Assembly: GCF_030551255.1 (NCBI RefSeq)
Contig: NZ_CP130630.1
Coordinates: 7,483,501 to 7,547,500 of the forward strand
Reading direction: 5' to 3'
Origin: Streptomyces sp. NL15-2K
Lineage (GTDB): Bacteria > Actinomycetota > Actinomycetes > Streptomycetales > Streptomycetaceae
DNA length: 64,000 nt
The position numbers were made by a program, and so were the translations under genes. Below the pieces are notes generated by a model that saw only the letters and a program-made list of their open reading frames with translations, did no database searches and was not told the origin of the DNA. Below, piece after piece: positions 15,256-48,278 of the stretch. Every line of letters begins with the position of its first letter. Positions within the stretch are counted from its first letter, which is position 1.

Positions 15256-15288
15256 TCCGCCACTCCTGAACCCCCACCAAGGAGAACC

Positions 15289-32600: not shown

Positions 32601-35048
32601 TCACTCGCCCGGGTGGGAGAGCTCGATGTCGTGGCTCTCCGCACCCGAGCCGTGCACGGTCAGGCTGGTGGCCTTCGGCGGGTAGCCGGCCGCCATGATC
32701 GTGTACTCGCCGCCGTCCAGGTCGGTGAAGGCATAGGTGCCGTCCTCGCCGGTGGTCGCGCCGGCCACCACGTTGCCGGCCGCGTCGAGGAGCGTGATCC
32801 GCGCGTCGTTCAGCGGCCGGCCCGCCGCTTGGACCGTGCCCTGCACCTGGAGGCCGGAGAACAGTTCGACCTCGGTCCTGGTGACGCCCTGCCCGGCGAT
32901 CTCGACGGGCAGCGCGATCGGCCGGTAGCCGGCCGCGGTCACCGCGAGGGTCAGCTGGCCGGGCACCAGCTCGGCGAAGCTGAAGGTGCCGTCCGTGTCG
33001 GTCAGCCCGGCGGCGAGCACGTCGCCGCGCACGTCGGCCGCGACCACCATGGCGCCGACGACCGGCTTCTTGTGGTCGGCCGACCTGACCGTGCCGACCA
33101 GGCCGCTGGTGCCGGAGAGCAGGATGTCGTACGAGACCGGCTCGTCGCCGACCACCACCGTGGAAGCCTGTGGCTGGTAGCCCTCGGCGGAGGCGATGAG
33201 CACGTAGCTTCCCGCGCCCGGCGCGTCCACCGTGTACGAACCGTCCGGGTGGGCCACCACGCGGCCCACCTGCCGCCCGCCCAGTGAGATCAGGGTGACG
33301 GCTGCCTGCGGCACGGGTGTCGACTCGGCGCCGATGACGTGGCCGCTGACGGGGATGCCGCCGGAGGCCCGGACCGCGGCAGTGGCTCCCGCGGTCGCCG
33401 CCGGGACGGGCGAAGTGTCCGTGGCGGGCGCTGCCGGGCTCGGCACGTTCTCGTCGTTCTCTGTGCTGTCGTGGTTCCCGTCCGCCCGGCCTCGGAGGCC
33501 GAGCGCCGCGAGGGCGGCGCCCAGGAGCGCGAGGATGCCGGTGACCAGGACGGCGGTGTGAACGCCGTTCATGAAGGCGGTGTGGCTGCCCTCCACCACG
33601 GCCGCCCGGAGCTGTGCGGGCATCGCGTCGGAGACCGGGGCGACGCCCATCGCGACCGCGTCCTTCGCCTCCTCGAAGCGAGCGGCTGCCGAGTGGGGCA
33701 CGCCGGCGTCGGTCAGCGAGTCGGTGAGTGTGGAGCCGACGCGGCTGCTGATGATGGAGACGAGCACCGAAGTGCCGAGCGCTCCGCCGACCTGGAGCGA
33801 GGTGGCCTGGAGGCCACCCGCGATGCCACCGTCCTTGACGGGGGCGTTGCCGACGATCGCGTCGGAGGACGCGGACATCACGATGCCGACGCCGAGGCCG
33901 AGCGCGGCGAACGGCGGCCACATGGTGGCGTACGAGGAGTCGGCGCTCCACGAGAGCATCGCGAACGCGGCGCCGGCCTGGAGCACCATCCCGAGCGGCA
34001 TGGTCAGCCGCGGGCCGAACTTCTCGGTGAGCTTCGCGCCGAGCGGCGAGGCCACCATGGAGACGAGGCTGAGCGGCAGGGTGCGCACACCGGCCTCGAC
34101 GGGCGTGAAGCCGCGTACGTTCTGCAGGTACAGCATCACGAAGAAGATCGTGCCGAGCAGCACGAAGAAGTTCAGCGCGGTGACGAACGTACCGATGGTC
34201 AGGGCCGGGTTGCGGAACAGCCGCATGGGCAGGAGGGGGTGCGCGACGCGGGTCTCGTACCAGCCGAAGAGGACCAGGACGACGACACCGCCGACGATCG
34301 CGCCGAGCGTGCCGGCCGAAGTCCAGCCCCACGTCTCGCCCTTGACGACGCCGAAGACGACGGCGAGCAGTCCGAGCGCGAGCAGCACGACGCCGGGCAC
34401 GTCGAACTTCTCGCTCGCGGCAGCCTCGTTCCTGGACTGCGGCAGCACTACGAGGCCGAAGACGAGGGCGATGACGCCGATGGGGGCGTTGATGTAGAAG
34501 ACGGACTCCCAGTTGACGTGCTCGACGAGCAGTCCGCCGACGATCGGGCCGAGCGCGGTGGAGACGGACGAGATCATCGCCCAGATGCCGACCGCCATGC
34601 CGAACTTCTTCGGCGGGAACACGGCACGCAGCAACGCGAGGGTGTTGGGCATCAACATCGCGCCGAAGAGGCCCTGCAGGGCCCGGAAGGCGATGACGCC
34701 CTCGACAGAGCCGACGAGACCGATCGCAACGGACGCGAGGGTGAATCCGACGACGCCGACGAGGTAGACCGTACGGCGCCCGAGGCGGTCGCCGAGCTTG
34801 CCGCCGAGGATGAGGGCGGCGGCGAGGGCGAGCAGGTAGGAGTTGGTGACCCACTGCAGTTCAGCGGTGGTGGCGTTCAGGTCGCGGGCGATCTCGGCGT
34901 TGGCGATCGAGACGACGGAGCCGTCGAGGCCGACCATGAACAGGCCGAACGCGACGGCGACCAGCGTCAGCCAGGCGTTGGCGCGAACACCGCGGGGCTG
35001 GGGGTCGGATACGGAAGGGGGCGCTGTGGAGACAGCGGTGACAGACAT
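32601..35048 (-). CDS. MFS exporter (DHA2) with C-terminal carboxypeptidase-regulatory-like repeats
   Basis: An 815-residue fusion. Residues about 25-510 are a 14-TM DHA2 drug exporter (GKLGDRLGRRTVYLVG motif A, ALGPIVGGLLVEHVNWESVFYINAPIG motif C). After a Glu/Asn/Pro-rich linker come three successive beta-sandwich modules of roughly 80 residues, each with a G-x-V or PV-AxVTL start and DGSYTV/DGTFSF/DGTYAF turns, typical of carboxypeptidase-regulatory-like domains. Where these modules sit relative to the membrane depends on helix number. The upstream MarR gene on the same strand probably controls it. ATG 35048 gives the normal short N-terminus. Confidence 0.9.
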   Translation of the reverse strand: MSVTAVSTAPPSVSDPQPRGVRANAWLTLVAVAFGLFMVGLDGSVVSIANAEIARDLNATTAELQWVTNSYLLALAAALILGGKLGDRLGRRTVYLVGVVGFTLASVAIGLVGSVEGVIAFRALQGLFGAMLMPNTLALLRAVFPPKKFGMAVGIWAMISSVSTALGPIVGGLLVEHVNWESVFYINAPIGVIALVFGLVVLPQSRNEAAASEKFDVPGVVLLALGLLAVVFGVVKGETWGWTSAGTLGAIVGGVVVLVLFGWYETRVAHPLLPMRLFRNPALTIGTFVTALNFFVLLGTIFFVMLYLQNVRGFTPVEAGVRTLPLSLVSMVASPLGAKLTEKFGPRLTMPLGMVLQAGAAFAMLSWSADSSYATMWPPFAALGLGVGIVMSASSDAIVGNAPVKDGGIAGGLQATSLQVGGALGTSVLVSIISSRVGSTLTDSLTDAGVPHSAAARFEEAKDAVAMGVAPVSDAMPAQLRAAVVEGSHTAFMNGVHTAVLVTGILALLGAALAALGLRGRADGNHDSTENDENVPSPAAPATDTSPVPAATAGATAAVRASGGIPVSGHVIGAESTPVPQAAVTLISLGGRQVGRVVAHPDGSYTVDAPGAGSYVLIASAEGYQPQASTVVVGDEPVSYDILLSGTSGLVGTVRSADHKKPVVGAMVVAADVRGDVLAAGLTDTDGTFSFAELVPGQLTLAVTAAGYRPIALPVEIAGQGVTRTEVELFSGLQVQGTVQAAGRPLNDARITLLDAAGNVVAGATTGEDGTYAFTDLDGGEYTIMAAGYPPKATSLTVHGSGAESHDIELSHPGE

Positions 35049-35773: not shown

Positions 35774-36415
35774 TCAGGAGTGGCGGTCCGCTTCCCCCGT
35801 CGCGTTCTGAACGGTGAGGAGCCGCACCTTTGAACCGTCACCGACGGCACGCCAACGGTGGGGAGTGCCTCCGGGGTAGCAGATGCTGTCTCCCGGTCCG
35901 AGCACGTGGAGACGGGGTCCGTCCGCGGTCTGCAGGTCGATCTCGATCTCACCGGCCACGACGTAGACGAACTCGTCGCCGGGGTGGTCGTAGTACTCCT
36001 CGAACCCCTCCCGGGTCCCGGTGTACTCCACGGGGTGGACGGAGTAGGCGGGGGCGCCGAGCATACGTGCCGTGCCGCCGGGGTTGGCCACGGGCAGGCC
36101 CTCGCCCGAGCGCACCAGGTGGACGGAGTCGGCCGAGGCGCCGGGATGCCGCACCGCCGCCGCGGCCATGAGTGCCTGCTGTGTGGTGCCGAGAGCGCGG
36201 GCGATGCGGTGCAGGGACGGCATGCTCGGCCGGGTCAGACCCCGCTCCAGCTGGCTGAGGAACGGGTGGGAGAGGGCGGCGCGGTCGGCGAGCTGGACGA
36301 GGGTCAGGCCCCGCTCCTTGCGCAACTTGCGGATCGCACTGCCGAGTTCGGCGCGCAGCGGTGCGTCCGCGTCCTCGGCGGTGGGTGACGTGCTGTTGGC
36401 GGGTTGGGGCGGCAT
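35774..36415 (-). CDS. XRE-family regulator with C-terminal cupin domain
   Basis: A 213-residue regulator. HTH of the lambda-repressor type (SAIRKLRKERGLTLVQLADRAALSHPFLSQLERGLTRPSMPSLHRIARAL), a linker, then a cupin_2 domain (DHPGDEFVYVVAGEIEIDL ... GPGDSICYPGGTPHRWRAV) that presumably binds the inducer. It is divergent from the flavin reductase block. The palindrome in this gap (36514-36534) recurs upstream of the ABC-transporter block, so it is the best candidate regulator of both. AGGA lies before ATG 36415. Confidence 0.9.
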   Translation of the reverse strand: MPPQPANSTSPTAEDADAPLRAELGSAIRKLRKERGLTLVQLADRAALSHPFLSQLERGLTRPSMPSLHRIARALGTTQQALMAAAAVRHPGASADSVHLVRSGEGLPVANPGGTARMLGAPAYSVHPVEYTGTREGFEEYYDHPGDEFVYVVAGEIEIDLQTADGPRLHVLGPGDSICYPGGTPHRWRAVGDGSKVRLLTVQNATGEADRHS

Positions 36416-36561: not shown

Positions 36562-37083
36562 ATGGCTGCGGCCACTTCCGACCGTCCCGTCGACTCCCGG
36601 CCGGACTCCGCCTTCCTCGACGCCATGGCCGCCCTGGCCGGGGGCGTCTGTGTCGTCACCGCCCTGACCGCGAAGGGGCGCCCGGTCGGCTTCACCAGCA
36701 CCGCCGTCATGAGCCTGAGCCGCGAACCGCAGCTGCTGGCCATCGGGGTGGGCCGTCGCGGCCGTACGCTGCCCACGCTGCTCGGCGGCCGCACGTTCGC
36801 GCTGAACATCCTGCATGCCGGCGGTGAGCACATCTCCCGGCGCTTCGCCGACTCCTCCGCGGACCGGTTCGCGGAGGTGGAGTGGTCGGCCGAGGAACGC
36901 GGCGGACTGCCGCTGCTGCTCGCGCACAGTTCGTACGCGGTCCTCTGCCGTATCGCGCGCGACCTCCCGGCCGGGGACCACCAGCTGATCGTCGCGGCCG
37001 TCGAGGGCGTCGTGACCGGGACCGGCGGACCGACCGCCCTCGTGCACCACGACCGCCGCTATCACGCGCTCGGTGCCGCGTGA
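36562..37083 (+). CDS. Flavin reductase-like (FMN-binding split barrel) protein
   Basis: A 173-residue protein of the HpaC/RutF flavin reductase family: AGGVCVVTALTAKGRPVGFTSTAVMSLSREPQLLAIGV near the N-terminus, RTFALNILHAGGEHISRRFA, and a C-terminal LVHHDRRYHALG. It would supply reduced flavin to a two-component monooxygenase, but no such partner gene is in the window. AGGGAG lies about six bases before ATG 36562. Its stop overlaps the next gene (GTGA). Confidence 0.9.
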   Translation: MAAATSDRPVDSRPDSAFLDAMAALAGGVCVVTALTAKGRPVGFTSTAVMSLSREPQLLAIGVGRRGRTLPTLLGGRTFALNILHAGGEHISRRFADSSADRFAEVEWSAEERGGLPLLLAHSSYAVLCRIARDLPAGDHQLIVAAVEGVVTGTGGPTALVHHDRRYHALGAA

Positions 37084-37964
37084 GCGGGCCCGACTGGTTC
37101 CAGGTCGCCGAGACCGGCCCGGGCGCCTTCGTGATCGCCGAGCCGGGCCACGTCAACAGCTACCTCCTGCTCGGCGACGAACTGGCCCTGCTCTACGACA
37201 CGGGCATGGGCGTCGGCGACATCGGCGAGCAGGTGCGACGGCTGACCCGGCTGCCGCTGCTCGTCGTCAACTCCCACCACCACTTCGACCACCGCGGCGG
37301 CAACGCCTCCCTGGCCGGGCACGCCGAGGACATCGCCGTACACACCGATGGCGCCGCGCTGCACACGGCTCCGGCTCCGCGCGAGTGGCTGGAGGCGTAC
37401 GCGCACATCGCGCACGGCCTGCGGAAGCGGTACGAGGAGTTCCGTGCCCTGGACACCGGCGGGTTCTTCCTGACCGACTCCCGCGTCGAGGTGCGGCCGG
37501 TGCCCGACCTGGCCGACTGGCGCATCGAGGCCGTACGCCCCACCCGGCTGCTGCGCGAAGGAGACGTCCTCCACCTGGGCGGCCGGAGCCTGAAGGTGCT
37601 CCACACCCCCGGGCACTCGCCGGACGGCATCTGCCTGTGGGAGCCGGAGACGGGGTTGCTGCTGGCCGGGGACACGCTGATCAGCGGTACCTTCTTCGCC
37701 CATGTACCGGGCGCCGACGTGAAAGCCTTCGCCGGCTCGACGCGCCGCCTCGCGGAGCTGCCCGTCACCACCGCGCTGCTCGGCCACAATCTGCGGCACC
37801 GGGAGTCGGCGGATTTCGTCGGCCGGGTCGCCGAGGCGTTCGCGGCCGTGCGGGACGGCCGCACCCGCCCGTACCCCTCCACCGACATGTTCGGCGCCCC
37901 CGTACGCCGTCATGACTTCGACGGCTTCGCGGTGCTCACCGCGCCGCACGGAACGGACCGCTGA
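37080..37964 (+). CDS. Metallo-beta-lactamase-fold hydrolase
   Basis: A 294-residue MBL-fold protein. Metal motif NSHHHFDHRGGN, later His in HTPGHSPDGICLWEPE, Asp in LLAGDTLISG and His in LLGHNLRH. The binuclear zinc site is complete, so it is likely an active hydrolase, of lactone, lactam, thioester or cyclic amide. GTG 37080 overlaps the flavin reductase stop and its own stop overlaps the amidohydrolase start as TGATG. Confidence 0.9.
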   Translation: MSGPDWFQVAETGPGAFVIAEPGHVNSYLLLGDELALLYDTGMGVGDIGEQVRRLTRLPLLVVNSHHHFDHRGGNASLAGHAEDIAVHTDGAALHTAPAPREWLEAYAHIAHGLRKRYEEFRALDTGGFFLTDSRVEVRPVPDLADWRIEAVRPTRLLREGDVLHLGGRSLKVLHTPGHSPDGICLWEPETGLLLAGDTLISGTFFAHVPGADVKAFAGSTRRLAELPVTTALLGHNLRHRESADFVGRVAEAFAAVRDGRTRPYPSTDMFGAPVRRHDFDGFAVLTAPHGTDR

Positions 37965-39211
37965 TGTCACCACTTCTGCTGCGTGGCGCGCGGCTGCCCG
38001 ACGGAGACGTCCGCGACCTCCTGCTCGACCCGGACAGCGGCCTCGTCGCCCGGGTCGCCCCGCCCGGAGTGCTTCCTTCCGGCCCCGATGAACTCGACCT
38101 GACCGGGCATCTGCTCCTGCCCGCCCCCGCGGAACCGCACGCCCACCTGGACAAGGCCCTCACCTGGGATCTGGCGCAAGCATTGCCTGCCGGGGCACCA
38201 GCGGGCGCCCTGCCCGGAGACCTGTCCTCCGCCGTCACCGCCTGGCGCGCGTACGCCGCGCGGGTCACCGAGGAAGACGTGTTCCAGCGCGCCGGGCGGG
38301 CGGTCGACGAGTTGCGTGCGAACGGTGTGACAGCCGTCAGGACCCACGTGGATCTCCTCACGGACAACGGCAGCTACCGCGCCGGTGATCCGCTGCGCGG
38401 CCTGCGTGCCCTGCTCCGGCTGCGCAGACAGCTCCGCGGCCGCGTACGACTCCAGATCGCCGTCCTGCACATCGACGCCCCGGACGAGCTGCTGCACCAG
38501 GCCCTCGACCTCGGCGCGGACCTGCTGGGCGACTGCCCCCACCTGTCCGCCGACCCGGCCGCGTCCGTGGAACGCACCCTGCGCATCGCCGCCGAGCACC
38601 AGGTCGGGGTCGACCTGCACGCGGACGAGACCCTCGACCCGGGCGCGCAGGATCTGCGCCTGCTCGCCCGTGCCGTGCGGGAGCGCGGCTTCGTCTCCGG
38701 CGTCACCGCGAGTCACTGCGTCAGCCTCGGCGCGGTGGAGCCGGAGGAGGCGGCCCGCACGGCCAAGGAGGTCGCGGCCGCCGGGATCGGCGTGGTCGCC
38801 CTCCCGCTGACGAACCTCTACCTCCAGGGCCGCGACCGTCCGTCGTCCACACCGCGTGGTCTCACCGCCGTACGCGCCCTGCTGGACGCGGGCGTGACGG
38901 TCGCGGCCGGCGGTGACAACATCCGGGACCCTTTCAACCCCGTGGGCCGGGCGGATCCGCTGGAGACCGCGTCCCTGCTGGTCACGGCCGGCCATCTCAC
39001 GCCGGGCGAGGCGCTGCACGCGGTCACCGCGGGCGCCCGTGCCGTCCTCGGGCTGCCCGAGGCCGGCCCGTACGAGGGTGCCGTCGCCGATCTGCTGGCG
39101 GTGCGCGCGCAGACCGTGTCGGAGGTCCTCGGCGCGTCCTGTCCCGAGCGGCTCGTCTTCGCCGGCGGGCGGCTGGTCAGCCGTACGTCGGTGGTGCGCG
39201 AGCTGTACTGA
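37964..39211 (+). CDS. Amidohydrolase-family deaminase (cytosine deaminase-like)
   Basis: A 415-residue amidohydrolase. Metal and catalytic motifs in family order: EPHAHLDKA (HxH), TAVRTHVDLL, DLHADETLDP (catalytic Glu), ASHCVSLG and GGDNIRDPFN (Asp). This pattern is that of cytosine/isocytosine/N-isopropylammelide-type deaminases. It probably removes an exocyclic amino group from, or hydrolyses, a nitrogen ring compound. Start overlaps the previous stop (TGATG). Confidence 0.9.
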   Translation: MSPLLLRGARLPDGDVRDLLLDPDSGLVARVAPPGVLPSGPDELDLTGHLLLPAPAEPHAHLDKALTWDLAQALPAGAPAGALPGDLSSAVTAWRAYAARVTEEDVFQRAGRAVDELRANGVTAVRTHVDLLTDNGSYRAGDPLRGLRALLRLRRQLRGRVRLQIAVLHIDAPDELLHQALDLGADLLGDCPHLSADPAASVERTLRIAAEHQVGVDLHADETLDPGAQDLRLLARAVRERGFVSGVTASHCVSLGAVEPEEAARTAKEVAAAGIGVVALPLTNLYLQGRDRPSSTPRGLTAVRALLDAGVTVAAGGDNIRDPFNPVGRADPLETASLLVTAGHLTPGEALHAVTAGARAVLGLPEAGPYEGAVADLLAVRAQTVSEVLGASCPERLVFAGGRLVSRTSVVRELY

Positions 39212-39212
39212 G

Positions 39213-39236
39213 GGTCCGGGAACCTGTCCGGGAATC
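39213..39236. repeat. 12-bp imperfect tandem duplication after the amidohydrolase stop
   Basis: GTCCGGGAACCT is followed by GTCCGGGAATCT with one mismatch, a few bases after the TGA at 39209-39211. A smaller relative of the stop-codon duplications seen elsewhere. Confidence 0.7.
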
Positions 39237-39303
39237 TGCTGAAGCCGCCCGCCCGCCCGTTCCCGACGAACGGATACCGCCGTGACACCGGTCCGAAACA
39301 ATC

Positions 39304-39324
39304 AATGTTCATGCTATCAACATT
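39304..39324. promoter_or_regulatory. Palindrome upstream of the ABC transporter block, copy 2
   Basis: AATGTT, 9 bp, AACATT: a perfect 6-9-6 inverted repeat 27 bp before GTG 39352. Its sequence matches the complement of copy 1 at 36514-36534 in 17 of 21 positions, and both lie 27 bp from the start codon of the gene they precede. Confidence 0.7.
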
Positions 39325-39351
39325 CGCACTGTGGCACTGAAGGGAGCTGAT

Positions 39352-40122
39352 GTGCCGACCACCGCCGAACAGACACTCGAAGCGACACTGGAAGCGACGC
39401 TGCGATTCGAGAGCGTCGACAAGCACTTCGCCAACGGGACCACCGCCCTCACCGGCCTCGAACTCTCCATCGCACCGGGCGAGTTCGTCGCCGTCGTCGG
39501 CCCCTCGGGCTGCGGCAAGTCCACCCTGCTCCGCCTCGCCTCCGGCCTGGACACCGCCACTGGCGGCACGGTCCATGCCCCCGCGGACTCCCTCGGCTAC
39601 GTCTTCCAGGACCCGACCCTGCTGCCCTGGCGCACCGTCCTGGCCAACGTCGAACTCCCCGCCGAACTCACCGGAACCCCGAAGGCCGAACGGCGTGAAC
39701 GGGCGCTGGACGCCCTGCGCCTGGTGGGCCTGGAGGGCTTCGAGAAGCAGCTGCCGGGGCAGCTGTCCGGAGGCATGCGGATGCGCGTGTCCCTGGCCCG
39801 TGCCCTCATGGCACGGCCGTCGCTGTTCCTCTTCGACGAACCGTTCGGCGCCCTCGACGAGATGACCCGCCTGCGCATGCAGGAGGAACTCCAGCGCATC
39901 TACGCCGAGACCGGCTTCGCCGCCCTGTTCATCACCCACTCGGTGACCGAGGCCGTCTTCCTGTCCGGCCGGGTCGTGGTGATGTCGGCACGCCCCGGCC
40001 GGATCACCGCCTCCTTCGACGTCCCCTTCCCCCATCCCCGCCCGGCCGAGCTGCGCTACGACCCCGAGTTCGGCCGCATCGCCGGCGAGGTCTCGGCGGC
40101 GCTGCGTGGAGGATCCGAGTGA
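39352..40122 (+). CDS. ABC transporter ATP-binding protein (nitrate/sulfonate/NMT1 type)
   Basis: A 256-residue ATPase. Walker A GPSGCGKST, Q-loop VFQDPTLLPWR, signature LSGGMRMRVSLARAL, Walker B LFLFDEPFGALDE and switch His in FITHSVTEAV, characteristic of the SsuB/TauB/ThiZ family. GTG 39352 with AGGGAG 6 bp upstream is preferred to GTG 39331. Operator copy 2 precedes it. Energises uptake through the permease and lipoprotein encoded next. Confidence 0.93.
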   Translation: MPTTAEQTLEATLEATLRFESVDKHFANGTTALTGLELSIAPGEFVAVVGPSGCGKSTLLRLASGLDTATGGTVHAPADSLGYVFQDPTLLPWRTVLANVELPAELTGTPKAERRERALDALRLVGLEGFEKQLPGQLSGGMRMRVSLARALMARPSLFLFDEPFGALDEMTRLRMQEELQRIYAETGFAALFITHSVTEAVFLSGRVVVMSARPGRITASFDVPFPHPRPAELRYDPEFGRIAGEVSAALRGGSE

Positions 40123-41006
40123 GCGCCCACATCACGGCCACCGACCGGACCGAAAAGGCCGTACCGGCAACGGACTTGCCCCAAGCCGAGCCTCCGGCCC
40201 GCGCACGCCGGCACCGGATCCGGATCCGGCCCGTCACACTGCTCACGCCGCTCGGTTCGCTCGGCGCGGCCATCGGCGTCTGGTACGCCGCCACCTATCT
40301 GCTGCTCAGCCCCGACCGGCGCTTCCTCGTCCCGCCACCCCACCAGGTCCTCACCGTGTCGTTCCTCGACTGGACCCATCTGCAGCCGATGCTCCAGGCG
40401 CTGCGGCTCACCGCCCAGGTGGCGCTCGTCGGTCTGCTCATCGCCTCCGCGCTGGGCGTGACGGCGGCGGTGCTGATGAGCAGGGCCCGCTGGCTGGAAC
40501 GCTCCCTGTACCCGTACGCGGTGGTCCTCCAGACCGTGCCGATCCTCGCGATCGTGCCGCTGGTCGGCCTCTGGTTCGGCTTCGGATTCACCAGCCGCGT
40601 GGTCGTCTGCGTCCTGATCGCCCTCTTCCCGATGATCGCCAACACCCTGTTCGGCATCCAGTCGGTGGACCGCACCCACCACGACCTGTTCACCCTCCAG
40701 CGGGCGAGCCGCTGGGCCCGGCTGCGCAAGCTCGAACTGCCCGCAGCGCTGCCTTCGATCTTCACCGGGCTGCGCACCTCCTCCGGCCTGTCCGTGATCG
40801 GTGCGATCGTCGGTGACATGTTCTTCAAGCAGGGCGAACCCGGCATCGGGACCCTGCTCGACGTCTACCGCTCCCGGTTGCAGTCCGAGGACCTGTTCGC
40901 CGCGATCATCCTCGCCTCACTCTTCGGTGTCACGGTCTTCGCCTTCTTCACCCTCGTCGCGCGGCTCGCCGTCGGCTCCTGGCACGCCTCGGCCGACCGG
41001 CCGTAA
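40119..41006 (+). CDS. ABC transporter permease (SsuC/ThiX type)
   Basis: A 295-residue permease with six or so membrane segments and the cytoplasmic EAA-like loop LQRASRWARLRKLELPAALPSIFTGLR before the last helices, where the ATPase docks. A 40-residue charged N-terminal tail precedes TM1. GTG 40119 overlaps the ATPase stop (GTGA). Confidence 0.93.
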   Translation: MSAHITATDRTEKAVPATDLPQAEPPARARRHRIRIRPVTLLTPLGSLGAAIGVWYAATYLLLSPDRRFLVPPPHQVLTVSFLDWTHLQPMLQALRLTAQVALVGLLIASALGVTAAVLMSRARWLERSLYPYAVVLQTVPILAIVPLVGLWFGFGFTSRVVVCVLIALFPMIANTLFGIQSVDRTHHDLFTLQRASRWARLRKLELPAALPSIFTGLRTSSGLSVIGAIVGDMFFKQGEPGIGTLLDVYRSRLQSEDLFAAIILASLFGVTVFAFFTLVARLAVGSWHASADRP

Positions 41007-41062
41007 CCCCGCCGCTGCCCCCGCCCTCCGCTCATCTCCCCCCGTCCCTCAGGGAGTCAGTC

Positions 41063-42235
41063 ATGCCCTCATCCGCCAGACACGCCGCTGTTTTCGGCGT
41101 TTCCTCCGCAATCGCCCTGGTATCGATCACCGCCTGCGGAAGTGGCTCCACCGCCTCGACCGGTTCCGCCGACAAGCTCCAGGCAGCCCCCGCCGCCCAG
41201 CGCCTGACCGGCGTCTGCCCCAAGACGGTCGTCGTCCAGGTCGACTGGGAGCCCGAGGCCGAACACGGCCCCCTCTACCACCTCGTCGGCCCCGGCCACA
41301 CCGTCGACACCGCGAAGAAGCGGGTCACCGGCCCGCTGGTCATCGACGGCAAGGACACCGGCGTCGACATCCAGATCCGGGCCGGCGGCTCCGCCATCGG
41401 CTACCAGAGCGTCCCCTCGCAGATGTACGTCGACAAGAGCATCACCCTCGGCACGGTCACCACCGACGTGGCCATCACGGCATCCGCCAAACAGCCGGTC
41501 ACGGCCGTCGCGGCGCTGATGAAGAAGAGCCCGCAGGTCCTGATGTGGGACCCCGCCACCCACCCCGACTGGAAGACGATCGCGGACATCGGCAAGTCGA
41601 ACGAGAAGGTCGTCTACGTGGACGGCAGCACCTACGCCTCACTGCTGGTCGCGAAGGGCCTCATCAAGAAGAGCCAGCTGGACGGGAGCTACGACGGCGC
41701 ACCCGCCCGCTTCGTGTCCAACCCGGGCATCGCCCAGCAGGGCTTCGCCACCGCCGAGCCGTACATCTACGAGCACGAGGTGTCGGCCTGGAAGAAGCCG
41801 ATCAAGTACCAGCTGCTCGCGGACGTCGGCTTCAACGTCTATCCAGAAGCCCTCTCGGTGCGCAGCGGTGAGCTGAAGTCGCTCAGCCCCTGCCTGAAGA
41901 AGCTCGTCCCCGTCCTGCAGCAGTCGGCCGTCGACTTCGCGGCCGAGCCGTCGGCGACGGTCAAGCTCATCAGCGACCTGGTGCAGCAGTACAACACCGG
42001 CTGGGTCTACTCCGAGGGCACCGGCACCTTCGCCGCGCAGCAGATGGTCAAGCTCGGCATCCTCGGCAACGAGGCCGACGGCAGCATCGGGAGCTTCGAC
42101 ATGAAGCGCGTCGACTCCATCCTGAAGACCTTCACCCCCCTCGTCGAGCAGAGCGGCGCCAAGGTCGAGCCGGGGCTGACCGCCGAGGACCTGGCGACCG
42201 GCGAGTTCATCGACACCTCGATCGGATTGAAGTGA
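41063..42235 (+). CDS. ABC transporter substrate-binding lipoprotein (ThiY/NMT1-like)
   Basis: A 390-residue binding protein. Signal peptide with lipobox VSITAC (lipidated Cys25) and low-complexity linker. The first strand VVVQVDWEPEAEHGPLYHL follows the pattern of NMT1/ThiY proteins that bind pyrimidine, thiamine-related or other small nitrogenous ligands. Two alpha/beta lobes follow. GGGAG precedes ATG 41063. With the ATPase and permease it forms a complete importer, so the pathway starts from an external compound. Confidence 0.9.
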   Translation: MPSSARHAAVFGVSSAIALVSITACGSGSTASTGSADKLQAAPAAQRLTGVCPKTVVVQVDWEPEAEHGPLYHLVGPGHTVDTAKKRVTGPLVIDGKDTGVDIQIRAGGSAIGYQSVPSQMYVDKSITLGTVTTDVAITASAKQPVTAVAALMKKSPQVLMWDPATHPDWKTIADIGKSNEKVVYVDGSTYASLLVAKGLIKKSQLDGSYDGAPARFVSNPGIAQQGFATAEPYIYEHEVSAWKKPIKYQLLADVGFNVYPEALSVRSGELKSLSPCLKKLVPVLQQSAVDFAAEPSATVKLISDLVQQYNTGWVYSEGTGTFAAQQMVKLGILGNEADGSIGSFDMKRVDSILKTFTPLVEQSGAKVEPGLTAEDLATGEFIDTSIGLK

Positions 42236-43656
42236 TGACGACCGGAAACCTGACCGCTCTCACCGAACTCGTCGACGACGAACGAGCGACGACTGCGACG
42301 GAACGTCAGCCCACGCCCGGCATCGAGGAATTCTGCGCCCAGGCCGCCGAGCTCCTCGGCGCCGACGGATCGATCCGCGATCCGGCCGCGCGGGAGAAGG
42401 CCTCCTGCGACTGGGCGCACATGTCGCCCATCCTGTCCGCGAAACTCCCCGCCGGGCACGCCGAGGCGGTCCTGCGCCCCACCTCGCACGAGCAGCTCCC
42501 GGGCATCCTGGCCCTGGCCCACCGCCACCGCATCCCCCTCACCCCCCGCGGCAAGGGCACCGGCAACTACGGCCAGGCGATCCCGCTGTACGACGGTGCC
42601 GTGCTCGACCTCACCGGCTGCGGCCGCGTCCTCGACGCCGGCGACGGCTGGATCCGCGCCGAGGCCGGGGCGAAGATGTCCGACCTCGAAGCCCACGCCC
42701 GCACGCTCGGCCAGGAGCTGTGGATGTTCCCGTCCACCTTCGGCACCACCCTCGGCGGCTTCCTCTCCGGCGGCAGCGGCGGCACCGGATCCCTCGTGCA
42801 CAAGACCAACAGCGACGGCTTCGTACGGGAGCTGACCGTCGTACCCTGCACGGCGGACGCCGAGCCCTTCACCGTGCGGGAGTCGGACGCGCTGCCGTAC
42901 ATCCACGCCTACGGCACCACCGGCGTCATCGCCACCGCGACCGTACGGCTCCAGCGGGCCCGCACCTGGACGGGGCTGTTCGCGGCCTTCGCCGACTGGG
43001 CGTCCGCCACCGCCGCCCTCTCGGCGCTCGTACGGCTGGAACCGGCACCGCGCCTGGCCTCGCTGGACGAGGCCGGCCTCGTCCGGGTCTACCCGCCGGA
43101 CCCCGCTCTGGACCCCGCGGCCCTGAGCCTGCGCGCGATCATCGAGGAGGAGGCGGTCGACCAGGCACGGGCGATCGTCCAGTCGTACGGCGGCAGCGTC
43201 CTCGACGTCCGGCCCGCACCGGACGGCCCCGCGCTGATCAGCTCGATGTCCTTCAACCACCCGACCTACCACCTGATGAAGGCCGAGGACGGCTGGTTCC
43301 ACCTGGAGATCGGCGGCGACGTCCTGCTCGGCGACACCACCGAGATCAGGAAGGTCTTCCCGGACACCCTGCTCCACCTGGAGGGCATGCGCTCCGGCAC
43401 GGTCGGCATGCTCATGGCCCGTTACCAGGACGAGCAGACGGTGTACGACGGCATCGCCGCCCTGGGTGCTCTGGGTGTCGGCGTGCACAGCCCGCACAAC
43501 TGGTACGTCGACCGCCGCCTGGACCTGGTACGGGAAGCGGCCCGCACCGCCGACCCGCTCGGCCTGCTCAATCCCGGCAAGATTCCCGCCGCTTCCGAGG
43601 AGACCGCTTCCGAGGCGACCGTTCCCGAGGCGACCGTTCCCGAGGAGACCCCGTGA
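42235..43656 (+). CDS. FAD-linked oxidase (PCMH-type, glycolate oxidase GlcD-like)
   Basis: A 473-residue flavoprotein. N-terminal PCMH FAD domain (LRPTSHEQLPGILALAHRHRIPLTPRGKGTGNYGQ, then MFPSTFGTTLGGFLSGGSGGTGS) and a C-terminal cap domain ending ADPLGLLNPGKI. Family members oxidise 2-hydroxy acids or C-N/C-O bonds. ATG 42235 overlaps the binding-protein stop as TGATG. The last 20 codons are a fourfold 15-bp tandem repeat. Its coupling to hydrolase genes suggests an oxidative step within a nitrogen-ring pathway. Confidence 0.88.
   Translation: MTTGNLTALTELVDDERATTATERQPTPGIEEFCAQAAELLGADGSIRDPAAREKASCDWAHMSPILSAKLPAGHAEAVLRPTSHEQLPGILALAHRHRIPLTPRGKGTGNYGQAIPLYDGAVLDLTGCGRVLDAGDGWIRAEAGAKMSDLEAHARTLGQELWMFPSTFGTTLGGFLSGGSGGTGSLVHKTNSDGFVRELTVVPCTADAEPFTVRESDALPYIHAYGTTGVIATATVRLQRARTWTGLFAAFADWASATAALSALVRLEPAPRLASLDEAGLVRVYPPDPALDPAALSLRAIIEEEAVDQARAIVQSYGGSVLDVRPAPDGPALISSMSFNHPTYHLMKAEDGWFHLEIGGDVLLGDTTEIRKVFPDTLLHLEGMRSGTVGMLMARYQDEQTVYDGIAALGALGVGVHSPHNWYVDRRLDLVREAARTADPLGLLNPGKIPAASEETASEATVPEATVPEETP
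43591..43650. repeat. Four 15-bp tandem repeats coding the C-terminus of the FAD-linked oxidase
   Basis: Units GCTTCCGAGGAGACC, GCTTCCGAGGCGACC, GTTCCCGAGGCGACC, GTTCCCGAGGAGACC, each giving a five-residue (A/V)-(S/P)-E-(E/A)-T block. The period is in frame, so copy number can change without a frameshift. The stop codon and the GTG of the next gene follow directly. Confidence 0.92.
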
Positions 43657-44438
43657 CCTTCACCCGGTTCATCGACCTCAGCGGCCCGGAGATCGAGCGG
43701 CTCGGCGGGGACACCGTCGCCGTACTGCCCGTCGGCGCGGTCGAGCAGCACGGGCCCCATCTGCCCGTCGCCACCGACTACTACATGGCCGAGGCGGTCG
43801 CGGAAGGCGCCGCCCGGATCGCGGGGGAGAGCTGCGACATCACGCTGCTGCCCGGGCTCGCCTACACCAAGTCCGACGAACACGCCTGGTCCGCGGGCAC
43901 ATTGTGGCTCAGCGCCCGCACCCTGTTGTCCGTCCTGGACGACCTCGGCCGCTCCCTGACCGCCGGCCCCGTACGGCGGCTCGCCTTCCTCAACGCGCAC
44001 GGCGGCAACAGCGCCCTGCTCGGCGTCGCCCTGCGCGAACTGCGCACCCGCCACGGCCTGCGCACCTTCCTGCTGCACGCATCCCTCCCCGCCGACCAGG
44101 GCGGCACGTCCCCGGCCACGGAGTACGGCATGGGCGTGCACGGCGGGCTCAAGGAGACCGCCGCCATGCTGCACCTCCGCCCGGACCTGGTGGACATGGC
44201 CCGGGCCCGCCGCAGCGTCCCCGAACACCTCACCTCGTACGAGCACATCGGCTTCGGCAAGCCGGTGTCCTTCGGCTGGACCAGCGACGACTTCGCCACC
44301 GGCAACGGCCTCATCGGCGATCCCACGGGAGCCACGCCCGAACTCGGCCGCAAGCTCGTCGACGCGTCCATCGCCGCGGCCGCCGCCGCGTTGCGCGAAT
44401 GCGCGCGCTTCCTGCCCGACCGCCCCTTGCCCTCCTAG
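43653..44438 (+). CDS. Creatininase-family amidohydrolase
   Basis: A 261-residue creatininase/creatinine amidohydrolase family protein. GAVEQHGPHLPVATDY carries metal ligands Glu31, His33 and Asp42; FLNAHGGNSALL supplies the next His, and an acidic HGGLKETAAMLHLRPD the last. The family opens cyclic amides (creatinine, guanylurea, formamidopyrimidine). GTG 43653 overlaps the oxidase stop. The substrate here is unknown, but ring opening of a lactam fits the context. Confidence 0.92.
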   Translation: MTFTRFIDLSGPEIERLGGDTVAVLPVGAVEQHGPHLPVATDYYMAEAVAEGAARIAGESCDITLLPGLAYTKSDEHAWSAGTLWLSARTLLSVLDDLGRSLTAGPVRRLAFLNAHGGNSALLGVALRELRTRHGLRTFLLHASLPADQGGTSPATEYGMGVHGGLKETAAMLHLRPDLVDMARARRSVPEHLTSYEHIGFGKPVSFGWTSDDFATGNGLIGDPTGATPELGRKLVDASIAAAAAALRECARFLPDRPLPS

Positions 44439-44448
44439 GGAGCCCGCC

Positions 44449-44880
44449 ATGGCCAACCCCCCGCTGCACACCCCGCTGCGTGACATCACCGCCCACCACA
44501 TCACCGCGGGCGACACCGTCAAGCTCGCCGTGCTCACCGGTCCCCGGGACGGCTCGCCGACCACGGTCGTCTTCGAGGTCTGGGAACCGGGCGGCGCCCA
44601 GCCCTTCAACTGGCACCCCGACTCGGTCGAGACGTTCGTCGTCCTCGCCGGCCACGGCCGTGCCGCCAGCGACGAGCACGAACGCGACCTCGCCCCCGGC
44701 GACGTCCTGGTCCTGCCCGCCGGGTCCAAGCACCGCATCGTCAACACGTCCGCCACCGAACGCCTCTACACCCTCACCGTCATGTCCCCCGACGAGGGCT
44801 TCGCCGACCTCATCGAACGCGGGCCGGGCGCGACGCTGGACGACCGGGATCTGGCCGTCCTGCGGGCGGGAACGTCGTGA
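44449..44880 (+). CDS. Single-domain cupin protein
   Basis: A 143-residue cupin: FEVWEPGGAQPFNWHPDSVETFVVLAGHGRAASD (motif 1, with one His and a Glu) and LAPGDVLVLPAGSKHRIVNTS (motif 2). Metal ligands appear largely present. Such small cupins are isomerases, dioxygenases or sensors. GGGAG precedes ATG 44449, 10 bp after the creatininase stop. Its stop overlaps the AtzH-amidase gene. Confidence 0.88.
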   Translation: MANPPLHTPLRDITAHHITAGDTVKLAVLTGPRDGSPTTVVFEVWEPGGAQPFNWHPDSVETFVVLAGHGRAASDEHERDLAPGDVLVLPAGSKHRIVNTSATERLYTLTVMSPDEGFADLIERGPGATLDDRDLAVLRAGTS

Positions 44881-46451
44881 ACGCGGATCTCCTCGCTGCC
44901 TTCTGGGCATACGAACAAGCCCTCGCCGCCAATGATGTGCCGGGGCTGGACCACTGGTTCCTGGACGCGCCGGACACCCTGCGCGCCGACGGCGACGCCG
45001 TGCTGGTGGGCCACAGCGCCATCGCCGACTTCCGGCGCGGGCGCGGCGGGGCTCCGGCGCGGGTCGTCGAGCGGGTGCACGTGGTCCGGCCGGCGACCGG
45101 GGTCGCGGTCGTGACCGCCGAGACCCGGCGGCAGGACGGGGCACGCGGGCTGCAGACCCAGGTGTGGCAGCACACCGACGCCGGGTGGCGGATCGCCGCC
45201 GCACATGTGAGCGCCGCGTCCGCGCCGACGCCGGACGACCGCCCGGATCCGGCGGTGTGGCGTGTGGGGGGTTCTCGGGGAGACCCGCTGTCGGCATCCA
45301 CCGGGCAGGGCCCGCTGGCGCATGTCCGCACCGCCGTGAAGGATCTGTACGCCGTCGCGGGACAGCGCGTCGGTGCGGGCAACCCCGCCTGGCTGGCGGA
45401 GGCCCGTACGGAAGAGGCGCACGCGGCCGCCGTACGGCGGCTGCTCGACGCGGGCGCCGAACTCACCGGCATCGCCCAGACCGACGAGCTGGCCTTCAGC
45501 CTCGCCGGGACCAACGCGCACTACGGCACCCCCGTCAACCCCGCCGCCCCCGGCCGCGTCACCGGCGGCTCCAGCAGCGGCCCGGCCGCCGCCGTGGCCC
45601 ACGACTGGGCGGACCTGGGGCTGGCCACCGACACCGCCGGCTCGATCCGCGTACCGGCGTCCTACTGCGGCCTGTACGGCTGGCGGCCCACCCACGGAGC
45701 CACCCCCACCGGGGGCCTGCTGGCGCTGGCCCCCTCCTTCGACACCGCCGGACTCCTGGCCCGCGACCCCGTCCTGCTGCGTACGGCGGCCGAGGTGCTG
45801 CTGCCCGCCGACGAGGCCCCCGTGCCGGTCACCCGACTCATGGTGGACGAGGAACTGGTGTCGCTCGCCGGACCCGAGGTCCGCGCCTCCTTCGAGGCCG
45901 CCTGCCGGGCACTGACCCTGCGCACAGGGCTGCCCCTGGCGCGTACTCCCACCGGAGCCGCCGAGCACCTGGAGGAATGGTTCGCCGCCTTCCGCGCGGT
46001 CCAGGCCACTGAGGCCTGGGAGCAGCACGGCGCCTGGATCACCCGTCACCCGGGCGCGCTCGCCCCGGACGTCGCGGCGCGCTTCGAGAACGGACGCCGG
46101 GTGAGCGCGGCCGAGCGGGCGGAGGCGGAACAGATCCTGGCCGACGCGCGGAAGGCGCTGGACGTCGTACTGGTACCCGGCACTGCCCTGCTCCTGCCCG
46201 CCACGAGCGGTCCGGCCACCCTCGCCGACGCGCCGCCCGAGGAGGTCGAGGCCGTACGCGCCGCCACCCTCCGCCTGACCTGCCTCGCCTCGCTGGCCGG
46301 GCTCCCGGCGGTCGTCGCCCCGCTGCTGCGGGTGCGCTCACTGCCCGTGGGCCTGTGCGCGCTGGGCGCCCGGGGCACGGACCGGGCCCTGCTGGACTTC
46401 ACGGCCTCCACCGGCTTCACCACCGAATCGAGGAGCCCCACGCATGCCTGA
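44877..46451 (+). CDS. AtzH-like domain fused to an amidase-signature hydrolase
   Basis: A 524-residue fusion. Residues 1-125 resemble AtzH (DUF3225, NTF2-like fold: LLAAFWAYEQALAANDVPGL ... VWQHTDAGWRIAAAHVS). Residues about 140-520 are an amidase-signature enzyme with catalytic Lys155, the Ser-rich turn GGSSSG (230-235, cis-Ser) and nucleophile Ser256 in DTAGSIR. In cyanuric acid catabolism AtzH and the AtzE amidase are separate neighbouring proteins acting on carboxylated biuret/urea intermediates; here they are one chain. GTG 44877 overlaps the cupin stop. Confidence 0.88.
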   Translation: MNADLLAAFWAYEQALAANDVPGLDHWFLDAPDTLRADGDAVLVGHSAIADFRRGRGGAPARVVERVHVVRPATGVAVVTAETRRQDGARGLQTQVWQHTDAGWRIAAAHVSAASAPTPDDRPDPAVWRVGGSRGDPLSASTGQGPLAHVRTAVKDLYAVAGQRVGAGNPAWLAEARTEEAHAAAVRRLLDAGAELTGIAQTDELAFSLAGTNAHYGTPVNPAAPGRVTGGSSSGPAAAVAHDWADLGLATDTAGSIRVPASYCGLYGWRPTHGATPTGGLLALAPSFDTAGLLARDPVLLRTAAEVLLPADEAPVPVTRLMVDEELVSLAGPEVRASFEAACRALTLRTGLPLARTPTGAAEHLEEWFAAFRAVQATEAWEQHGAWITRHPGALAPDVAARFENGRRVSAAERAEAEQILADARKALDVVLVPGTALLLPATSGPATLADAPPEEVEAVRAATLRLTCLASLAGLPAVVAPLLRVRSLPVGLCALGARGTDRALLDFTASTGFTTESRSPTHA

Positions 46452-47214
46452 GGCCCACGGCCTGATCGGGCCCAACTCCCGCAATGCCTGGCGGGCCGAT
46501 GGCGGGATCGTCACCCTGGCCCGTCCCCACCGCGACCCGCACCCGGTCACCGCCGAGGCGCTGCCGCGGACCGTGGTCGCCGACCTCGCCGCCACCGCGC
46601 TGATCGTCGTCGACATGCAGAACGACTTCTGCTCGCCCGACGGCTGGCTCGCCTCCATCGGCGTGGACGTGACCCCCGCCCGCGCCCCGATCCCCGTCAT
46701 CGCCGGCCTGCTGCCCCCGCTGCGCGCCGCCGGCGTCCCGGTCGTCTGGCTCAACTGGGGCAACCGCCCCGACCGGGCCAACCTCCCGCCCGGCGTCCTG
46801 CACGTCTACGACCCGGACGGCACCGGCGGCGGCATCGGCGCCCCGCTGCCGGGCGGCGCGGGCCGGGTGCTGGAACACGGCAGCCCCTCGGCCGCACTCG
46901 TCGCCGGGCTGGAACCGGCGGAAGGAGACCTCCACGTCGCCAAGTACCGGATGAGCGGCTTCCAGGACACCGAGCTGGACAGCGTGCTGCGCAACCTGCG
47001 GGTCGACACCCTGCTGTTCGCCGGCGTCAACGCCGACCAGTGCGTCCTGGCCACCCTCATGGACGCCGCCAACCTCGGCTACGACGTCCTCATGCTGGAG
47101 GACGCGGTGGCCACCACCTCGCCCGCGTACTGCATGGACGCCACGCTCTACAACGTCCGCCAGTGCTTCGGGTTCACCCTCACGGCCGAGGCCCTGCGGG
47201 AGGCCCTGACGTGA
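46444..47214 (+). CDS. Isochorismatase-family amidohydrolase (biuret/ureidoacrylate hydrolase-like)
   Basis: A 256-residue cysteine hydrolase. Catalytic triad Asp57 (LIVVDMQNDF), Lys167 (AKYRMSGF) and Cys200 (GVNADQCVLATLMDAAN). The SGFQDTELDSVLRNLRVDTLLFAGV stretch resembles RutB and biuret hydrolases, which split ureido groups. A 45-residue N-terminal extension precedes the core. AGGAG precedes ATG 46444 and the gene overlaps the amidase by 8 bp and the formamidase by 4 bp. Confidence 0.9.
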   Translation: MPEAHGLIGPNSRNAWRADGGIVTLARPHRDPHPVTAEALPRTVVADLAATALIVVDMQNDFCSPDGWLASIGVDVTPARAPIPVIAGLLPPLRAAGVPVVWLNWGNRPDRANLPPGVLHVYDPDGTGGGIGAPLPGGAGRVLEHGSPSAALVAGLEPAEGDLHVAKYRMSGFQDTELDSVLRNLRVDTLLFAGVNADQCVLATLMDAANLGYDVLMLEDAVATTSPAYCMDATLYNVRQCFGFTLTAEALREALT

Positions 47215-48278
47215 AGCTCCTCCAACCCGGACTCGGCCCATTGGACGGCGACCACTACCTCCCCGCCGACCCCTCCCGGGTGCACTGGGGCCTGCTGCCC
47301 AACGCCACCGCCGAACCGGCGCTGACCGTCCGATCGGGCGAGACCGTCACCTTCGACACCACCAGTCACGAGGGCATCCTCGAAGACCAGGGCCGCGACC
47401 CGGCCGCCTTCTTCGGGGCAGCCGGCATCCCCGGGGACCGTCTGCTGCACGACGCCGTCGAACTGGCCGCCTCCGCACGCGAACACCTGCCTCACACGCA
47501 CGGCCCGCATGTCGTCACCGGACCCGTGGCACTGCACGGCGCACAGCCCGGCGACGTACTGGAGGTCGAAGTCCTGACCCTGCGCCGCCGCGCCCCCTAC
47601 GGGGTGATCAGCAACCGGCACGGCAAGGGCGCCCTCCCCGGCGAATACCCGCAGACACCCCTGGGCGAGCCGGCCAGCATCGTCGCGACCGTCTCGGACG
47701 ACGGCCGGGGCCGGCTCCCGGTCGGCGACGGCCGCCGACTCGGCTTCCCCCTCCGCCCCTTCCTCGGCATCATGGGCGTCGCCCCGGCCACCGAATCCCC
47801 CGTCCACTCCGTCCCGCCCGGCCCGCACGGCGGGAACATCGACGTCCGCCACCTCGGCACCGGCGCCCGGCTCTTCCTCCCCGTCCAAGTCCCCGAGGCC
47901 CTCTTCTACGTCGGCGACCCGCACTTCTCCCAGGGCGACGGCGAAGTCGCCCTCACCGCCTTCGAGGCCCCACTGCGCGCCACCCTCCGCCTCACCGTCC
48001 ACACAGACCCGGCCACCCGCTCCCTGGCCGCCCGCCTGCGCGCACCCTTCGCCGAAACCCCGTCCGAGCACATCGTGCTGGGCCTCGACCAGGACCTCGA
48101 CGAGGCCCTGCGCAACGCCGTACGCGACGCACTCACCCTCCTCACGGACCGCTTCGCGATCCCCGGCCCTGTCGGCCTCGCCTACCTCAGCGCGGCCGCC
48201 GACTTCCACGTCTCCCAGGTGGTCGACATCGTCAAGGGCGTCCACGGCCGCATATCGAAGGCAGACCTGACGTGCTGA
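47211..48278 (+). CDS. Acetamidase/formamidase-family protein
   Basis: A 355-residue FmdA/AmdA-type amidase: HWGLLPNATAEPALTVRSGETVTFDTTSHEG at the start, GPVALHGAQPGDVLEVEVL, VPPGPHGGNIDVRHLGTGARLFLPVQVPEALFYVGDPHFSQGDGEVALTAFE as the core, and YLSAAADFHVSQVVDIVKGVH at the end. It hydrolyses small amides to ammonia and acid and would finish a pathway releasing formamide-like units. GTG 47211 overlaps the isochorismatase stop. Last gene of the block; a toxin-antitoxin pair follows 78 bp later. Confidence 0.92.
   Translation: MKLLQPGLGPLDGDHYLPADPSRVHWGLLPNATAEPALTVRSGETVTFDTTSHEGILEDQGRDPAAFFGAAGIPGDRLLHDAVELAASAREHLPHTHGPHVVTGPVALHGAQPGDVLEVEVLTLRRRAPYGVISNRHGKGALPGEYPQTPLGEPASIVATVSDDGRGRLPVGDGRRLGFPLRPFLGIMGVAPATESPVHSVPPGPHGGNIDVRHLGTGARLFLPVQVPEALFYVGDPHFSQGDGEVALTAFEAPLRATLRLTVHTDPATRSLAARLRAPFAETPSEHIVLGLDQDLDEALRNAVRDALTLLTDRFAIPGPVGLAYLSAAADFHVSQVVDIVKGVHGRISKADLTC

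Follow-up and report, generated by a model that had tools for sequence, protein, structure and literature searches.

Which compound might be taken apart by a run of twelve genes in Streptomyces sp. NL15-2K that places an ATP-binding cassette (ABC) importer beside a flavin adenine dinucleotide (FAD)-linked oxidase and several hydrolases and amidases? The genes lie in a window of 64,000 nucleotides, the whole stretch of DNA analysed here (C1:7483501-7547500 in a 12.4 Mb genome); all are on the plus strand and together they span positions 36562-48278. A preliminary description had presented them as one tightly coupled locus for taking an imported ring compound apart to ammonia; that the compound is taken up, deaminated and opened, and that ammonia is set free, is also what we infer. 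The twelve genes were recovered (Table 1) and, as described, most junctions overlap by 1-8 bp: the spacing in order is -4, -1, +140, -4, +56, -4, -4, +10, -4, -8 and -4 bp, with 8 of 11 junctions overlapping and three gaps of 140, 56 and 10 bp. What had been left out is a divergent gene for an XRE-cupin regulator, whose start lies 146 bp upstream of the run. The best explanation of the locus is a regulated accessory catabolic operon of two modules. The core, made up of the importer, the amidohydrolase, the FAD oxidase and the creatininase-family enzyme, can be found by itself; the arm, which would cut amides, forms a cluster of its own in some genomes. The cluster looks built as an importer-plus-breakdown set that would draw nitrogen from a nitrogen-containing ring molecule, and the best reading of that ring is hydantoin- or pyrimidine-like. 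We regard it as an even call that the AtzH-amidase fusion and FmdA make up a route from oxalurate via oxamate to oxalate that is shared with purine breakdown, while the core would make the oxalurate from an imported amino-substituted ring. What computation established is the conservation of the locus, its module structure, its active-site residues and the sharing of the arm.

Loci were selected via the FAD oxidase (L074 via the binding protein), whose own count is therefore no evidence, and the genes around its orthologs were counted by tblastn at E<=1e-15. The reported counts rest on tblastn because the home-made gene caller applied to unannotated loci was unreliable in its starts and missed or merged genes (e.g. 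in L066, L177 and L184). L054 (G246), probably the same genome as L006, was excluded from the locus counts and kept among the 53 AtzH-amidase places described below. A scan for close FAD-oxidase relatives yielded 14 Streptomyces-type loci, some truncated by contig ends. The flavin reductase, lipoprotein and creatininase-family genes were each found in 13 of them, the regulator, metallo-beta-lactamase-fold (MBL) hydrolase, amidohydrolase, ATPase and permease in 12, the cupin, AtzH-amidase and isochorismatase in 11 and FmdA in 8 (FAD oxidase 14, by selection). Where present in other Streptomyces loci, the genes stand in the window order, including the divergent regulator, while the LysR, SDR and MFS neighbours of the window lie outside the cluster; the grouping is thus more than chance. 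The closest named orthologs of the window FAD oxidase are from Streptomyces, and one locus, L007, has the core and the flavin reductase while the arm is absent. No close FAD-oxidase ortholog was found in 24 sampled same-genus genomes (best E 5.9e-12), which marks the locus as accessory; counting the window's own genome, orthologs occur in 25 of 394 class genomes (E<=1e-25) and in 2 of 396 genomes of a phylum sample (E<=1e-40). A locus from Actinacidiphila counted within the 14 (L014) consists of an amidohydrolase fragment directly followed by a C-terminal FAD-oxidase piece, and looks like a decayed cluster or remnant, or else an assembly error.

The core reaches much further than the arm. Twenty distant actinobacterial regions were taken, one of which (L054) is Streptomyces-like; in the remaining 19 (L055-L073) the amidohydrolase, ATPase, permease and lipoprotein were each found 18 times and the creatininase-family gene 17 times. 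Arm genes are rarer there, partly because the regions end (MBL hydrolase and cupin 5 each, AtzH-amidase 3, isochorismatase and FmdA 2 each); the XRE-cupin regulator is present in 8 of these loci and the flavin reductase in none. Plasmid searches also detected the core on proteobacterial plasmids, at about 30% identity. We hand-picked 21 proteobacterial regions from 60 and 141 matching records plus one binding-protein match; since at least six are Rhizobium/Agrobacterium relatives and two share one plasmid, these regions are not independent. Again, the amidohydrolase, creatininase-family, ATPase and permease genes were each found in 20 of the 21. As a control, we counted the same genes in 20 actinobacterial regions around FAD-oxidase paralogs: the amidohydrolase, the creatininase-family enzyme, the permease and the lipoprotein were each found in 0, the ATPase in 3. 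The preliminary description had named a lack of joint conservation as what would speak against it; the core is in fact kept in Streptomyces, in other actinobacterial families and in Proteobacteria. With an importer and several C-N hydrolases kept together, the core across phyla, a nitrogen-compound catabolic locus is the natural reading. The idea of one coupled locus is to be corrected to one of two modules, since the core is also met alone and the arm is split off in some genomes. The binding protein was detected in 42 of the 394 class genomes, including all 25 that are FAD-oxidase-positive. In five further regions (L099, L101, L103, L104 and L106) binding-protein relatives, 37-42% identical, adjoin methyltransferase-like genes recognised by eye from a WNYxLGGKD motif.

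One window protein combines an AtzE/HpxY-like amidase with an AtzH/HpxZ domain. The catalytic residues of AtzH are given as Tyr22 and Arg46 in the accessible part of the source (PMC6219798); in the pADP-1 AtzH sequence the catalytic Tyr/Arg stand three positions earlier than in that numbering, and the window protein retains them at Y12 and R36. Neither varies across 7 sequences, pADP-1 AtzH among them. The amidase falls under the AtzE cut-off (153.6 vs 425.75) and over that of an unnamed amidase model, PRK08310 (410.4 vs 391). Relatives of the AtzH-amidase, searched in the 394 class genomes at E<=1e-60 with all places counted at fixed thresholds, occupy 53 places in 52 genomes, and are present in 22 of the 25 FAD-oxidase-positive genomes vs 30 of the 369 others (Fisher p 8e-19, uncorrected for relatedness). 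These places divide into 21 in a window-type cluster or split-off module, 21 in urate/allantoate clusters and 11 elsewhere, four of which have FmdA within 10 kb. Within 10 kb of the cluster/module places we found the XRE-cupin regulator (19 of 21), isochorismatase (18), cupin (17), MBL hydrolase (17), a luciferase-like monooxygenase (15, E<=1e-40) and the creatininase-family enzyme (11). In L062, L064 and L065 the AtzH domain is a separate region. A variant cluster lacking the FAD oxidase, L142 (G167 C1), has a luciferase-like (LLM) monooxygenase that is weaker (41%) and outside the 15 counted, together with AtzH-amidase, ABC importer, creatininase-family enzyme, isochorismatase, a deoxyadenosine/8-oxoguanine-deaminase-like enzyme, cupin, FmdA and MBL hydrolase.

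In the urate group, the AtzH-amidase stands next to an aminotransferase of the AGT type and to a gene of the allantoate-amidohydrolase type, and uricase (16 of 21), allantoinase, 2-oxo-4-hydroxy-4-carboxy-5-ureidoimidazoline (OHCU) decarboxylase and 5-hydroxyisourate (HIU) hydrolase (18 each) are present. FmdA lies within 1.5 kb of the AtzH-amidase at 19 of the 21 places. Isochorismatase, cupin, MBL hydrolase and LLM monooxygenase are found at none of the 21, so that AtzH-amidase plus FmdA is what both settings share. One example is L144, whose OHCU decarboxylase, HIU hydrolase, urate oxidase, allantoinase and allantoate amidohydrolase all score over their NCBIfam cut-offs; its aminotransferase we take to be PucG-like, from context and recall. 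FmdA stands beside AtzH-amidase in the urate clusters L144 (8162-16276), L139, L145-L147, L149, L150, L152 and L153, and further in L156-L159, L163-L165, L168, L169 and L178. As far as the accessible parts of the sources go, HpxY is named an oxalurate amidohydrolase related to AtzE (PMC12625717), oxalurate arises in Bacillus subtilis via ureidoglycine aminotransferase, and HpxW frees oxalate and ammonium from oxamate (PMC5270733). On the strength of this literature and the shared urate context, AtzH-amidase and FmdA are proposed to lead from oxalurate to oxamate to oxalate in both settings, and are candidates for the oxalurate and oxamate steps of actinobacterial purine breakdown. The arrangement resembles the oxalurate branch of Klebsiella Hpx, in which an HpxZ/AtzH protein partners an amidase resembling AtzE and a second amidase follows; unlike there, the window joins AtzH to the amidase in one protein, and the FmdA family takes the place of the GGT-like HpxW. 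It also differs from urate catabolism proper, as the 10 kb around the window fusion hold no gene for uricase, allantoinase, HIU hydrolase or OHCU decarboxylase. With 21 of the 53 places of its relatives in urate/allantoate clusters, the AtzH-amidase points to the chemistry of oxalurate and urate more than to the cyanuric acid breakdown for which the preliminary description had cited AtzH/AtzE-like proteins.

Several cluster proteins carry family names that would mislead if taken as substrates. Pfam-type matches bear out the labels given to the named enzymes and ABC parts, but not that of the ThiY/NMT1-type lipoprotein, which matches no family model (nothing in Pfam or NCBIfam at E<=0.001; best PDB match E 0.34). 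Its 16 aligned orthologs have a mean column identity of 59% and conserve a DWxPExEHG motif that, we presume, resembles NMT1/ThiY proteins; the label rests on this motif and on the place of the gene in an ABC operon. The amidohydrolase is 30% identical to E. coli CodA and 24% to pADP-1 AtzC, in the same superfamily, and retains the CodA catalytic set as H59, H61, H219, E222, H251 and D318 (in CodA presumably His61, His63, His214, Glu217, His246 and Asp313). At what we take to be the CodA specificity residues, Gln156 and Asp314, the window protein and 16 other non-CodA rows of an 18-row alignment are altered. K64 (after HxHLD) and N319 (in DNxRD, where CodA has Asp314) are shared with AtzC, but other compared AtzC pocket residues differ, namely the Gln of the VAFAQ stretch and an Asp of AtzC whose place is taken by Glu in CodA and by Glu222 in the cluster; a Gln common to CodA and AtzC is absent in the cluster. 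The creatininase-family protein keeps E31, H33, D42, H116 and E168 in 18 of 18 aligned sequences, yet reads NAHGGN in place of the creatininase motif NGHYEN, which we assume carries metal ligand Glu122, and scores below the creatininase model TIGR04448 (89.2 vs 235 bits). The isochorismatase-like protein was compared with BiuH, for which the accessible part of the source lists Asp36, Phe41, Lys142, Lys145 and Gln215 (PMC7948467): the Asp, Phe and Lys142 are kept, Lys145 is Met and the Gln215 loop is three residues shorter. It falls under the cut-offs of BiuH (123.4 vs 370 bits) and of RutB TIGR03614 (119.8 vs 377.95). Altogether, as far as alignments can tell, these residues argue against cytosine deaminase, creatininase and biuret hydrolase activity, so that the first two names no longer serve as guides to the substrate. 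At E<=1e-20 the FAD oxidase has a single match in the PDB, the FAD/FMN-containing dehydrogenase 6V42/6V43 (E 1.3e-45, residues 52-453). The printed part of that sequence shares 66.6-67.1% identity with FAD oxidases from Rhizobium, among them the enzyme of the L083 core cluster. A paper on 6V42/6V43 was not found in the open-access literature.

How the pieces could work together is set out here as a proposal. The ABC system would import a small amino-substituted N-heterocycle, and the CodA/AtzC-like metal amidohydrolase would swap the ring amine for oxygen, releasing ammonia. The flavin reductase is presumed to be the reductase of a two-component flavin monooxygenase; an oxygenase fed by it and the GlcD/VAO-type FAD oxidase may oxidise one of the ring carbons as far as the alpha-keto stage, after which the creatininase-family hydrolase would open the lactam. 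Isochorismatase, cupin and MBL hydrolase would process intermediates, the weakest part of the scheme. Judging from the urate-catabolism context, AtzH-amidase would then convert oxalurate to oxamate, CO2 and NH3, and FmdA would release oxalate and NH3 from oxamate. The FAD oxidase family is known for 2-hydroxy acid oxidation, the creatininase family acts on cyclic amides, and oxalurate is ring-opened parabanate. These traits would fit a version that uses every core enzyme, from a 2-amino-imidazolone-type compound through hydantoin, 5-hydroxyhydantoin, parabanate, oxalurate and oxamate to oxalate; within the explanation preferred here we consider it a minority version, though one with a real share. 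If the proposal is true, a function would be gained for two families that accompany an FAD oxidase in soil, plant-associated and marine bacteria under the labels cytosine deaminase and creatininase, the substrate class would be narrowed, and AtzH-amidase and FmdA would be the proposed finishing enzymes of purine breakdown in many Actinomycetes.

Several observations weigh against this proposal. FmdA reaches 8 of the 14 Streptomyces-type loci, is missing from L004, L011 and L012 though the contig continues, and, of the 21 cluster/module places, has it within 10 kb at only 9, although some of these regions are cut. Next to the match, an AtzH domain could be detected at 37 of the 53 places, while at the others the match is amidase-only or the domain went undetected; the HpxZ model NF033625 stays under its cut-off for the window fusion (73.9 vs 135 bits), and the L144 aminotransferase passes no model (best BhcA, 180.6 vs 650). 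At E<=1e-15 the flavin reductase, MBL hydrolase, cupin, AtzH-amidase and FmdA are found in none of the 21 proteobacterial regions, and the isochorismatase and a window-type binding protein are each recognisable in one; a core without the arm need not end in oxalurate. Besides, 17 of the 42 binding-protein genomes have no FAD oxidase, and in those 17, as beside paralogs, the binding protein adjoins other amidohydrolases, 2-oxoglutarate (2OG) oxygenases or nothing obvious. The Streptomyces cluster contains no luciferase-like monooxygenase, the best match in the genome to the Frankia-type enzyme being 33% identical. MTHFR-like, Rieske and VanB-like genes in distant clusters hint at methylated substrates, for which the hydantoin version has no need.

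Neighbouring genes offer clues to the ring. Near the core, 2OG-Fe(II) oxygenases occur in L008, L076 and L078, TauD in L077 and luciferase-like monooxygenases in L062, L064, L065, L070 and L071; in L091 and L094 a 2OG-Fe(II) oxygenase stands beside the binding protein, FAD oxidase being absent. In L074 ureidoglycolate lyase and hydantoinase B genes adjoin the core on the opposite strand. Taken together with the neighbours weighed below, these genes speak for a ring of the nucleobase or hydantoin kind.

A nearby alternative, unlikely in our estimate yet the most serious, is a six-ring pyrimidine variant of the Rut pathway. In it, a flavin monooxygenase would open an imported amino- or methyl-pyrimidine, the isochorismatase would act as the ureide hydrolase and the proteobacterial RidA proteins would be RutC counterparts. 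Like E. coli Rut, the cluster has a flavin reductase and an isochorismatase-like hydrolase, and the luciferase-like monooxygenase at 15 of the 21 cluster/module places would suit this view, as would the RidA-family genes annotated in 19 of the 21 proteobacterial regions (all except L075 and L088). TetR regulators tested in five of these 21 clusters all have a RutR-type C-terminal domain, while scoring below the RutR cut-off, and suggest a pyrimidine-like effector, which counts in favour of our preferred explanation as well. The Streptomyces cluster, however, has no RutA, the single RutA over the family cut-off lying about 1.5 Mb away (C1:6013824); the isochorismatase is far below the RutB cut-off, and Rut has neither an FAD oxidase nor a CodA-like or creatininase-family enzyme. 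Rather less probable is the catabolism of a methylated purine or pyrimidine whose one-carbon unit is lost to folate and whose ring feeds the urate route. An MTHFR-like gene in 14 of the 19 distant loci speaks for it, together with VanB-like reductase and 8-oxoguanine-deaminase-like genes in L061, L063, L068 and L069, a VanA-type Rieske oxygenase in L063, xanthine-dehydrogenase-like and urate genes adjoining L069 and a xanthine permease beside L008. Those one-carbon genes are nevertheless not seen in the window or the Streptomyces clusters, and the MTHFR label is weak, PRK08645 staying below cut-off in 3 of 3 and DUF5981 exceeding it in 1 of 3. Oxidised guanine gives imidazolone and guanidinohydantoin products, according to the accessible part of one source (PMC7589758), which seeded a further and improbable reading: scavenging of oxidised guanine-type rings, in which 2-amino-imidazolone- or guanidinohydantoin-type compounds would be imported and pass, by deamination, to hydantoins and, by oxidation at C5, to parabanate-type rings and on to oxalurate, the creatininase-family enzyme serving as 'parabanate hydrolase' and AtzH-amidase and FmdA finishing the route. 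On that reading these two would also carry out the oxalurate and oxamate steps when actinobacteria break down purines.

Creatinine or N-methylhydantoin catabolism would explain a creatininase-family protein next to a CodA-like enzyme, creatinine deiminases being members of the CodA-like superfamily, but the creatininase score and the NAHGGN motif given above tell against it, creatinase and sarcosine oxidase are not among the cluster genes, and we hold it to be quite improbable. Catabolism of s-triazine, cyanuric acid or biuret/triuret, which we judge very unlikely, would account for the AtzH domain with its catalytic Tyr/Arg, the AtzE-superfamily amidase and the AtzC-like motifs of the amidohydrolase; the Rhizobium phaseoli core sits between allophanate hydrolase and BiuH genes, that of R. 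bangladeshense is also flanked by allophanate hydrolase genes, and AtzD and BiuH occur near a related transporter in L098. Unlike the Pseudomonas sp. ADP pathway (AtzD-AtzG-AtzE-AtzH-AtzF), however, the window cluster has no AtzD, AtzG or AtzF; the AtzD/barbiturase family (TIGR02714) was not found anywhere in the genome, although the positive-control genome G069 matched, the allophanate hydrolase gene is about 5 Mb away, the isochorismatase has neither BiuH Lys145 nor the Gln215 loop, and neighbours of this kind are missing around further Rhizobium cores (L082-L084). The preliminary statement that RutA, cyanuric acid hydrolase and barbiturase are lacking thus stands for the cluster, and genome-wide for the latter two, while RutA is present elsewhere in the genome. 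A natural-product biosynthesis or modification cluster, the least credible of these readings, would be in keeping with a Streptomyces host and the patchy FAD-oxidase distribution, yet ABC importer genes are present in nearly all loci, assembly-line enzymes are lacking, the core occurs in soil and marine Proteobacteria and the arm is common to urate breakdown. Homarine-type pathways were also considered, and nothing relevant was found in the open-access literature. In that literature we likewise found no description of the cluster, whether by its gene set or by way of parabanate/oxalurate enzymology, and, like the preliminary description, we found no characterised pathway to match it. A partial likeness is seen in biuret-hydrolase contigs of ammonia-oxidising archaea, where creatininase and a gatA-like amidohydrolase lie near biuH; FAD oxidase, importer and AtzH fusion are not mentioned in the accessible part of that source (PMC12625717).

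In L098 (G069 C109), a cyanuric acid hydrolase and a biuret hydrolase, both over their NCBIfam cut-offs, are encoded at 13047-16110, a few kb from an ABC system with a lipoprotein of the same family and two CodA-like amidohydrolases, with a permease-like gene next to it (by eye).

Table 1. Genes of the cluster and its divergent regulator, with positions in the window and supporting matches
Feature	Position	Strand	Support
XRE-type regulator, C-terminal cupin domain	35774..36415	-	HTH_31/HTH_3 + Cupin_2
Flavin reductase, RutF/HpaC superfamily	36562..37083	+	Flavin_Reduct 106.2 bits
Metallo-beta-lactamase-fold (MBL) hydrolase	37080..37964	+	Lactamase_B 78 bits
CodA/AtzC-superfamily amidohydrolase, presumed ring deaminase	37964..39211	+	Amidohydro_3 85.1 bits
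ABC importer ATPase	39352..40122 (start ambiguous, or from 39331)	+	ABC_tran 103.3 bits
ABC importer permease	40119..41006	+	BPD_transp_1 90.8 bits
Lipoprotein, presumed solute-binding protein	41063..42235	+	DWxPExEHG motif; family match none
GlcD/VAO-type FAD-linked oxidase	42232..43656	+	FAD_binding_4 79.9 bits
Creatininase-family metal hydrolase, presumed lactam ring opener	43653..44438	+	Creatininase 213.3 bits
Single-domain cupin	44449..44880	+	Cupin_2 53.7 bits
AtzH/HpxZ-like domain fused to amidase, candidate oxalurate amidohydrolase	44877..46451	+	AtzH-like 83, Amidase 172 bits
Isochorismatase-like cysteine hydrolase	46444..47214	+	Isochorismatase 132.1 bits; triad D57, K167, C200
FmdA/AmdA-family amidase, candidate oxamate amidohydrolase	47211..48278	+	FmdA_AmdA 95.1 bits

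Outside the cluster, the MFS transporter at window positions 32601-35048 (minus strand) has a C-terminal tail with about three carboxypeptidase-regulatory-like repeats, recognised by eye from the translation.

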